Source: Arcicella sp. (GTDB taxonomy: Bacteria > Bacteroidota > Bacteroidia > Cytophagales > Spirosomataceae). From it: 35,995 bases of DNA. A program made the translations under genes and the position numbers. The notes below the pieces were generated by a model. It saw only the letters and a program-made list of their open reading frames with translations. It searched no databases and was not told the DNA's origin. The stretch lies in NCBI GenBank assembly GCA_025356745.1, contig JANXRS010000139.1, positions 1 to 35,995 on the forward strand, read 5' to 3'. Positions 26,361 through 32,046 of this stretch are shown here, piece by piece (within the stretch, counting starts at the first letter, position 1; every line of letters starts with the position of its first letter).

Positions 26361-27650
26361 TTAAATACTTAGAACTTCTACTGCATATTTAATAACTTTA
26401 TCCGTTCCTCCCAAATTGTCCTCCACATATTTTCTAATAATAGTATATTGCTGGTTTCTTAATTCAATATCACTATATAATTTCTGAAATTCTAAAGCAA
26501 ATTCATCCGAATTATGAATAGCTTTTGCTCCCGTAAGTTGCTCTAAATCAATGGCTTCTTGAAATTTATGATAATTTTTATCGCCAAAAAAGATTGGTAA
26601 GCCAAAGGTTGCAGCTTCTAAGATGTTGTGCAGTCCTTTACCGTAGCTCCCTCCTATCCATGCAAAATCTGCGTATTGGTAGAGAGAGGATAACATTCCG
26701 ATATTGTCGATTATTAAGGTATTTGAAGTTAGGTATTGGAAATTATTCGTACTAATCTCAGAATATCTTACACTACTTCCTTTCAATTGCTTTCTCCAAC
26801 TCTCAATCTCAACCTCGTGAATTTCGTGCGGAGCAATGATTACGCTTAAATCTTTCGTAAAATTATTCAAAAATGGAACAATTACCGCAAAATCTTCTTG
26901 CCAACACGAACCAATAATCAATAAAGGTTTCCCATTTTTGAATTGTTCAATAATTGGTAATGATTTTCGAGCATCTGCAATTTGTTTTACACGGTCGAAA
27001 CGGGTATCTCCCCCAACTGTAACCCTCTGAAGACCAATATTTTGCAATAAATCTAATGAAGATTGATTCTGTACAAAAATATAATCAAAATACGTTAAAA
27101 TATTTCGATAAAACCCACCATATCCTTTGAAAAATATTTGATTAGGTCTGAAAATAGCGGAGAAAGAAATCACTGGAATTTGCTTTTCGTGTAGAATTCT
27201 AAGATAATTATACCAAAATTCATACTTCACAAAAAAAGCGATAGAAGGGTTTATTATTTCAATAAAATCTCTTGCATTTGAAGGCGTATCTGAAGGTAAA
27301 TAACAAATAAAATCAGCCCCTGTATAGTCTTTACGCACTTCATAACCCGAAGGCGAAAAGAAAGTTAGCACAATTTTATAGGCTGGAAATGTTTCTCTAA
27401 ATTTTTCAATAACGGGTCGTCCTTGCTCAAATTCACCAAGAGATGCACAATGAAACCAAGCAATTTTTGAGTACTGAGTTTCAAGTGCGAAATTTCTTTG
27501 ACTTTCGATTTTTTCTTGCCAATTACTAACTGCTAATTGCCAACTATTCCTTCCTTCAATCCATAATTTAGCCTTATGATTAAAAGGACTAACCATCCAA
27601 ATAATAAACTGATAGAAATAAATAGAGAAATTATATAGGAGTGCTGACAA
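26361..27650 (-). CDS. waaA: 3-deoxy-D-manno-octulosonic acid transferase
   Basis: AWFHCASLGEFEQGRPVIEKFRETFP, TFFSPSGYEV, YEFWYNYL, GGDTRFDRV, GSCWQEDF, APHEIHE, GGSYGKGLHNILEAATFGLPIFFG. Confidence 0.95.
   Translation of the reverse strand: MSALLYNFSIYFYQFIIWMVSPFNHKAKLWIEGRNSWQLAVSNWQEKIESQRNFALETQYSKIAWFHCASLGEFEQGRPVIEKFRETFPAYKIVLTFFSPSGYEVRKDYTGADFICYLPSDTPSNARDFIEIINPSIAFFVKYEFWYNYLRILHEKQIPVISFSAIFRPNQIFFKGYGGFYRNILTYFDYIFVQNQSSLDLLQNIGLQRVTVGGDTRFDRVKQIADARKSLPIIEQFKNGKPLLIIGSCWQEDFAVIVPFLNNFTKDLSVIIAPHEIHEVEIESWRKQLKGSSVRYSEISTNNFQYLTSNTLIIDNIGMLSSLYQYADFAWIGGSYGKGLHNILEAATFGLPIFFGDKNYHKFQEAIDLEQLTGAKAIHNSDEFALEFQKLYSDIELRNQQYTIIRKYVEDNLGGTDKVIKYAVEVLSI
27516..27543 (-). repeat. 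Four tandem degenerate heptamers inside the waaA CDS
   Basis: Minus-strand TTGGCAA TTAGCAG TTAGTAA TTGGCAA (plus strand TTGCCAA TTACTAA CTGCTAA TTGCCAA), encoding part of NSWQLAVSNWQEK. Confidence 0.8.
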
Positions 27651-30283: not shown

Positions 30284-31702
30284 ATGCCGAAATCCCCTGA
30301 AAATCAAGGACAATTAGTTCGCTCCATTGGATTAACCTCCGCCATAGTTCTCATTATCAGTTCTGTGATTGGCACGGGTGTTTTTAAGAAAATTGCTGCG
30401 ATGTCGGCAGAGTTACAATCGCCAGTTTTAGTATTAATTGCTTGGCTATTAGCAGGTTTAATTAGTTTGGCGGGTACACTTTCCAATGCTGAAGTTGCCA
30501 GTATGCTCGCAGATTCGGGTGGGGAATTTGTTTATTTTCGTAAAATATATAATCGCTTTTTTGCCTTCCTATTTGGTTGGACAAACTTTGCGGTAATTCG
30601 TACCGCTTCAATCGCATCCATTGCCTACGTTTTTGCTCAGTCGTTAAATAGCCTCATTCCATTTCCTGAAACATCAAAAGCTTTATCTGAATTTAGTTTT
30701 TTGGGTTTGCATCTTTTTGATAATCTTAGCGTAAAGTTGGTGGGAATATCCTTAATTATTTTTCAAACTTATTTTAATTATCGAGGATTAAAATTAGGCG
30801 AAAATTTAAGCAGAGTTTTAACCGCATTAATGGTTGTTACTATGCTGATAATCATTATATTAGGATTAACTTCGAGCATCGGTAGTATGGATAACATCAC
30901 AACAAATAGCGTTAGATATGACCCTAATACAATGAATGGTTCGACGCTTTTCAAGGCATTGGCATTGGCTTGTCTGAGTGCTTTTTGGGGATACGAAGGT
31001 TGGGCAAGTGTGGGATTTATTGGTGGTGAAATGAAGAATCCGCAACGCAATTTGCCATTAGCCTTAATTTTCGGAACTTTAATAGTGATGGCAATTTACT
31101 TATTAATGAATTTTGTTTATCTCTATATTCTTCCAATTGACGAATTTATCAATATTTACGAATCTAAAAATGGAATTGCTGCCGTTGCCGTTGTCAATCA
31201 CTTTTTGGGTTCATCAGGAGGACTTTTAATTTCTTGCCTTATTCTGATTGCCACCTTCAACTGTTCAAGCACCACTATTCTTTTGGCTTCGAGATTATTT
31301 TATGCCATGGCGAATGATAAGATGTTTTTCAAAAGCGTTGATTACATCCACCCAAAATATAATACCCCTTCCAGAGCTTTATTTATTCAAGCAATTTGGA
31401 CTTCACTTTTAGTACTTTCGGGTACTTTCGATCAATTGACGGATATGTTGATTTTTGCGGCTTTTATTTTCTACGGAGCAACGGCTTTTGGGGTTTTTGT
31501 CTTGCGTAAGAAAATGCCCGATGCTCCCCGTCCATACAAAGTAATTGGTTATCCATTTGTACCAGCAATCTTTATATTATTTTGTATTGCTCTGATTGTC
31601 AATACCTTAATGCAAAAACCAGAAGAAGCATTGATTGGTTTAGGATTAATGGCAACGGGCTTACCTTTCTATTTTTATTGGAAAAGTAAGGAAAAGGTTT
31701 AG
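30284..31702 (+). CDS. APC family amino acid permease
   Basis: SIGLTSAIVLIISSVIGTGVFKKIAAMSAEL, SNAEVASMLADSGGEFVYFRKIYNRFFAFLFGWTNF, LACLSAFWGYEGWASVGFIGGEMKNPQRNLPLALIFG. Confidence 0.94.
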   Translation: MPKSPENQGQLVRSIGLTSAIVLIISSVIGTGVFKKIAAMSAELQSPVLVLIAWLLAGLISLAGTLSNAEVASMLADSGGEFVYFRKIYNRFFAFLFGWTNFAVIRTASIASIAYVFAQSLNSLIPFPETSKALSEFSFLGLHLFDNLSVKLVGISLIIFQTYFNYRGLKLGENLSRVLTALMVVTMLIIIILGLTSSIGSMDNITTNSVRYDPNTMNGSTLFKALALACLSAFWGYEGWASVGFIGGEMKNPQRNLPLALIFGTLIVMAIYLLMNFVYLYILPIDEFINIYESKNGIAAVAVVNHFLGSSGGLLISCLILIATFNCSSTTILLASRLFYAMANDKMFFKSVDYIHPKYNTPSRALFIQAIWTSLLVLSGTFDQLTDMLIFAAFIFYGATAFGVFVLRKKMPDAPRPYKVIGYPFVPAIFILFCIALIVNTLMQKPEEALIGLGLMATGLPFYFYWKSKEKV

Positions 31703-31720
31703 TAGATAATTTATTAGTTA

Positions 31721-31762
31721 GCAGTAAAATGGACATTTTAAAAATGATTTCCATTTTACTGC
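31721..31762. repeat. 13-bp perfect inverted repeat flanked by heptamer-like sequence
   Basis: gcagtaaaatgga (31721-31733) / tccattttactgc (31750-31762), flanked by ttattagttagcag... and ...actgccgactgtaaaac. Confidence 0.75.
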
Positions 31763-32046
31763 CGACTGTAAAACTTAATACTATATTCTAACTAATAGGA
31801 AGTTTTTTAAGCATAGATAAAATAATTTAATTTGTTGATAACCAATGAATTGAAGAACAATTGTCAATAATCTACAAGCCCCTATCGTTTATTTTTGGGC
31901 TAATTCATACTGTCGAAATGACTCATCGAATGGAAAATTATTCGCTCAATTTTAGGATAATTTTTCAAGAAATCTACCACCTTTAAAGTCATTCCAGTAG
32001 AATATGTATTGTCCACAGAAAGTTATTGTATTAAATAAAAATACAA

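Follow-up and report, generated by a model that had tools for sequence, protein, structure and literature searches.

Heptameric repeats and coding palindromes in bacteria

Heptameric repeats are over-represented in bacteria, and polymerase slippage has been hypothesised as their source (PMC4692102). TAACTGA heptamer direct repeats, found in Beggiatoaceae, Cyanobacteria and Bacteroidetes (MacGregor 2015, PMC4679880), are mainly intergenic and, when read in one orientation, carry a stop codon in every frame; their rare ORF copies are in the 'reverse' orientation and lie at protein peripheries (PMC4679880). GGGAATC / GGGGA(C/T)T heptameric repeats were described in Xanthomonas and Nostoc (PMC4692102). 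Palindromic DNA may also be tolerated in frame in unrelated housekeeping genes, as found for the Rickettsia palindromic elements (RPEs), which comprise families of about 150 bp with a conserved sequence and peptide (PMC10969869). Template switching is reported to homogenise the arms of inverted repeats and can build hairpins (PMC8604942, PMC7202029, PMC8794818).

The TAACTGA and GGGAATC repeats are the nearest known kind, and the array described here, located in the waaA gene of an Arcicella genome, is a variant of such bacterial heptamers. With TAACTGA repeats, the Arcicella heptamers share the unit length, the mainly intergenic arrays, the stops in one orientation and the rare in-ORF copies at protein peripheries. 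A. aurantiaca has the TAACTGA unit itself (TCAGTTA/TAACTGA), both ahead of gene starts and within alaS. Unlike TAACTGA repeats, the heptamers of Arcicella belong to many families within the genus and mostly form inverted pairs, and the family hosted by a single protein linker differs between species, TTRGYAR being that of the sequence studied here. As reported for GGGAATC repeats, the heptamers are found near stop codons and frequently in convergent inverted pairs, few are intragenic, and they vary strongly between relatives (PMC4692102). However, GGGAATC repeats are G-rich, of quadruplex type and belong to one family, whereas those of Arcicella are AT-richer, fall into several families and are also placed in frame inside essential genes. 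The new aspect is that unrelated heptamer families repeatedly occupy the same loops of essential proteins.

A degenerate heptamer array in the WaaA linker

The window, that is, the whole 35,995-nucleotide stretch analysed, comes from a 4.57-Mb, 520-contig MAG; the named members of its genus are Arcicella. The host gene, waaA/kdtA (26361..27650, minus strand), encodes a 429-aa 3-deoxy-D-manno-octulosonic acid transferase (Pfam PF04413, Glycos_transf_N, E=6.9e-44; PDB 2xci, E=6e-21). A hypervariable linker of about 29 aa, NSWQLAVSNWQEKIESQRNFALETQYSKI (27462..27548, minus strand), delimited by GR and AWFHCASLGEF, connects the N-terminal helices to the first strand of the N domain. Within it, the coding strand read from 27543 down to 27516 is composed of TTGGCAA TTAGCAG TTAGTAA TTGGCAA, which is translated in frame as GRNSWQLAVSNWQEK and encodes WQLAVSNWQ. 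The first-pass annotation had pointed to an in-frame heptamer tandem repeat that did not disrupt the protein, and both statements held, the fold being left intact, with an array of four units (28 nt) and not three.

The four units give 32 of 42 unit-to-unit matches. Similarity of this level occurs a single time in the window; 30 third-order Markov resamples never attained it, and 3 codon shuffles out of 30 did. The linker showed a significant period of seven (p=0.001), and periods 5, 6 and 8-11 were not significant over its whole length. This signal was found to sit in the 28-mer (p=0.001), the remainder of the linker giving p=0.10 for the same period. Head-to-tail 7-nt units beyond chance were thus confirmed in waaA. 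Taken alone, the array is a weak tandem repeat: it scores only 37 in TRF, which gives 14 comparable rows for the window. The inverted arm was not significant in this copy (p=0.19), and a stable RNA fold was absent (z=+0.46).

In an alignment of WaaA from 30 genomes, the flanks FNxKAKLWIxGR and AWFHCASLGEFEQG were conserved, while the linker between them differed across Arcicella lineages in sequence and in length (24-50 aa), its lengths not being simple multiples of 7 or 21. The window protein and that of the sister species (G003) are 82% identical and have linkers of equal length, whose ungapped DNA identity is only 39%, so that they are non-homologous. The proposal that the repeat entered waaA as a clean insertion of 7 aa (21 nt) was therefore rejected, since no such gap was present in any WaaA sequence compared and the whole linker is non-homologous even to that of the sister species. 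Nor did the second NWQEK turn out to be the native continuation. The residue at GR+3 was L, W, I or F in 38 of 43 scorable members of the WaaA family, and that at GR+7 was L, I or V in the same proportion (38/43). The first W of the window protein (GR-N-S-W), not the second, falls on GR+3, and its V falls on the hydrophobic GR+7. Because these two residues occupy family positions, the register suggests that the array probably grew from the native helix start and not ahead of a native NWQEK.

The predicted structures agree with the repeat being accommodated outside the conserved fold. In the AlphaFold2 model of the window protein, residues 37-52 form a helix (pLDDT about 90) and residues 53-62 a loop (about 66). 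In that of the congener G005, whose linker has 50 aa, disorder is predicted over residues 42-78 (pLDDT <50), and the remaining fold is intact. The mean pLDDT of the two models was 94 and 89, respectively.

It had also been proposed that the repeat was spreading. In the window genome this was not supported, because three or more TTRGYAR units were found nowhere else there: the 3-unit pattern matched the waaA site only (reversed control 0), and the 2-unit pattern was at background (15 matches versus 13 in the reversed control). A 214-kb sample of this genome showed no period-7 excess, and dispersed copies of the heptamer were not observed in it. They were observed in three congeners, in which arrays related to TTAGCAG are abundant (G005, 53 matches; A. 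aurantiaca, G007, 21; G004, 10; reversed controls 0, 0 and 1), which is the part of the proposal that stands. A second in-frame degenerate heptamer stretch, TGTTGGC TGTTGGC AATCAGC AGTCGGC, was identified in alaS of the window genome.

Recurrence of heptamers in essential genes and between genes

Beyond what the first-pass annotation had noticed, unrelated heptamer families, mostly with inverted arms, were found at the same WaaA site in other species. The linker DNA had a significant period of seven in 7/8 Arcicella species, including that of the window (p=0.001 each), and in six congeners the two halves of the linker were inverted copies of one another (p=0.003) and capable of forming a hairpin. 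Strong RNA hairpins were predicted for the linkers of G004, G006 and G005 (z of -9.4, -7.9 and -4.1). The A. rosea linker displayed neither the period nor the inverted arms, nor a stable RNA fold, and two of the three outgroups were also devoid of both sequence features; the third (G008) showed period 7 (p=0.004) and no inverted arms.

At least four heptamer families were distinguished in the linkers of Arcicella. Besides TTRGYAR in the window, TTCGATG/CATCGAA was found in G002, G004, G005 and G007, whose linkers are mutually alignable (pairwise z of 8-15), TTCTGRG/CYCAGAA in G006, and a GATTTCG/TTCGGAT type in G003. In contrast with the TTCGATG group, the linkers of the window genome (G000), G003 and G006 show no recognisable homology to one another (pairwise z of 2.6-3.1). 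Matches to TTCRATR were restricted to G002, G004 and G007. Of eight genomes, G006 alone contained the TTYTGRG family, which it has at four loci, one of them waaA. Since several forks within Arcicella are open in the single-gene WaaA tree, the changes of family are given as a count of families and not as mapped events. In Runella defluvii, about ten AGGGCAA units occupy the same WaaA site, against one or two related units in R. limosa and in another Runella, a series whose sequences suggest a pattern of seed and expansion. Because almost all related Arcicella species, and one species of Runella, have a seven-letter repeat of their own there, the WaaA linker is a tolerant site, or hotspot, where heptamer repeats keep arising in frame.

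Other essential genes are affected as well. In A. aurantiaca, in-frame heptamers were found in alaS (DSGQLSVNSEQG and EKALSVINEQLAVI), leuS (LTPNPQPLT) and the N-terminus of mnmE. The leuS loop between SVRF and IEVFT harbors CCTAACC heptamers in G007 and G005 and a TTCGATG-like stretch in G002. G006 has two leuS copies, one of which contains a GC-rich palindrome in this loop, and in G000, G003 and A. rosea the loop is free of heptamers. The heptamers of G007 and G005 took the place of other sequence, the loop having the same length as in G000 and G003 (14 aa). As side observations, the LeuRS loops contain in-frame GC-rich palindromes (SPLTPRGG..SSPSGGGGG; YHPSHNGEGQGVRYPY) that differ from the heptamers and are RPE-like, the two leuS copies of G006 have different inserts, and LeuRS of the window genome diverges after GRSNFVY into a longer, unrelated segment without heptamers, to which the 13-aa loop of its relatives cannot be aligned.

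The Arcicella heptamers are analogous to RPEs, not members of them. As in RPEs, palindromic DNA is tolerated in frame in unrelated housekeeping genes (PMC10969869), here waaA, alaS, leuS and mnmE, with the WaaA fold kept in both models. However, RPEs are conserved in sequence and peptide (PMC10969869), whereas the Arcicella loci share only the period and the inverted layout, as seen in the low z-scores between G000, G003 and G006 and in the non-significant inverted arm of the window. The inverted arms that stay alike in coding sequence also resemble the homogenised inverted repeats and coding palindromes of two further reports, whose abstracts do not describe such arms as heptamer arrays (PMC8604942, PMC6649704).

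Array rates were obtained from samples of about 0.1-0.8 Mb per genome. A contiguous 380-kb stretch of the A. aurantiaca genome (contig C1) contained 28 period-7 arrays, versus six of period 8, three of period 9 and none or one for each of periods 4, 5, 6, 10 and 11. On this contig of a congener, the arrays were mainly intergenic and strongly depleted in coding sequence, only 4 of 27 loci falling in a CDS despite 87% coding density (p about 1e-17). Of the 68 array loci of G006 and G007 combined, 51 had an inverted repeat exceeding 20 shuffles, many with heptamer arms. Heptamer hairpins often begin at a stop codon, and the intergenic ones are enriched between convergent genes (10/20 versus 33/219 other gaps, p=0.0006). 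Large heptamer hairpins on C1 mostly had a T/G-rich arm first and a TAA-containing, A/C-rich arm second; a fixed chirality is not claimed, a stricter test giving only 10 versus 4. In the window, the preceding gene, an amino-acid permease, has a hairpin at its stop codon (31700..31783, plus strand; RNA fold z=-6.4), with 37-nt arms that are 73% complementary and contain TTATTAGTTAGCAG / CTGCCGACTG. TTATTAGTTAGCAG is one mismatch off the 2-unit TTRGYAR pattern, and the hairpin is probably of the heptamer type, now eroded, at a gene end as is usual for such hairpins.

Origin and persistence of the arrays

The reading preferred here, with a probability of roughly 0.68, is that of a degenerate heptamer minisatellite born by slippage in the hypervariable WaaA linker, with arms homogenised by template switching, and tolerated as stop-free passenger coding sequence. 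Heptamer units would originate and turn over in the linker through replication slippage from short native seeds, a process proposed as the reason for the tandem units and the graded Runella series, and the period of seven fits the heptamer over-representation reported in bacteria and its link with slippage (PMC4692102). Slippage alone does not yield two inverted arms of the same family; therefore, template switching between quasi-palindrome arms is invoked, as the simplest way in which the inverted halves may be kept alike (quasi-palindrome mutation). The window copy would probably represent a remnant of the 5′ (T/G-rich) arm, a conditional assignment because its inverted arm is not significant. 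Selection would purge arrays from coding sequence, except those that keep the frame, contain no stop and lie away from the conserved fold, and the encoded peptide would be a passenger without function, kept only in a loop or short surface helix. As for phase variation, a change of one 7-nt unit would shift the frame, and a degenerate array should be poor in slippage.

A mobile palindromic element, MITE/REP-like or RPE-style, inserting in frame into waaA and other genes with the heptamer hairpin as its body, would account for the inverted arms of six species and for one family lying at several G006 loci; GC-rich palindromes (AGCCCCC..GGGGGCT) are indeed in frame in G006 leuS, and another palindrome shares a leuS site in G006 and G007. 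However, no conserved ends or shared core were seen between heptamer loci, the period alone being common to them, unit variants are mixed within each locus, unit numbers are graded at one site in Runella, and the leuS heptamers of G007 and G005 were gained without a change in length, all of which makes such an element unlikely. Against the preferred reading, the four G006 loci of a species-specific family could mean that units move between loci, and the linker lengths given above also speak against it. A broader scenario is tentative, at perhaps one chance in four: through a genome-wide process in Arcicella and relatives, the same permissive loops (of WaaA, LeuRS and AlaRS) in essential proteins would receive species-specific heptamers in the form of matched inverted arms, older families would be overwritten or replaced, and hairpin DNA would repeatedly remodel coding sequence with the frame unbroken.

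Selection for an RNA hairpin (attenuator- or terminator-like) or for a length-tuned protein linker would agree with the strong folds of three linkers and with the enrichment of hairpins at convergent genes. It is nevertheless improbable, since neither the window copy nor A. rosea has a stable fold, the linker is unconserved in sequence and length, and no T-tract excess followed the heptamer hairpins (3.2 T in 8 nt versus 3.1 after other inverted repeats). For the heptamer hairpins as intrinsic terminators, the location at convergent gene ends fits and the T-tract count does not. Slightly less probable still, and disfavoured, is that the four heptamers resemble each other by chance, in a linker that is A/T-rich and unconstrained, without any repeat process; a solitary array, a 2-unit pattern at background, a low TRF score and a genome sample without period-7 enrichment are in its favour, but none of the Markov resamples reached the observed similarity, and period 7 recurs at one site in nearly all the Arcicella species and in R. 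defluvii.

On the preferred reading of slippage and arm homogenisation, one site of an important enzyme repeatedly receives new peptide from simple repeats, and the sister species serve as replicates. Two questions thereby become testable, namely the reason for a period of seven and the way in which the two hairpin arms change family together. For annotators, a short peptide that looks aligned (WQLAVSN or QNSELKT, for example) may derive from a repeat and need not be conserved. A 275-aa protein of A. aurantiaca (L198, 12920-13748) contains about 12 NQLPVTN-type units encoded by a 250-nt in-frame heptamer array.
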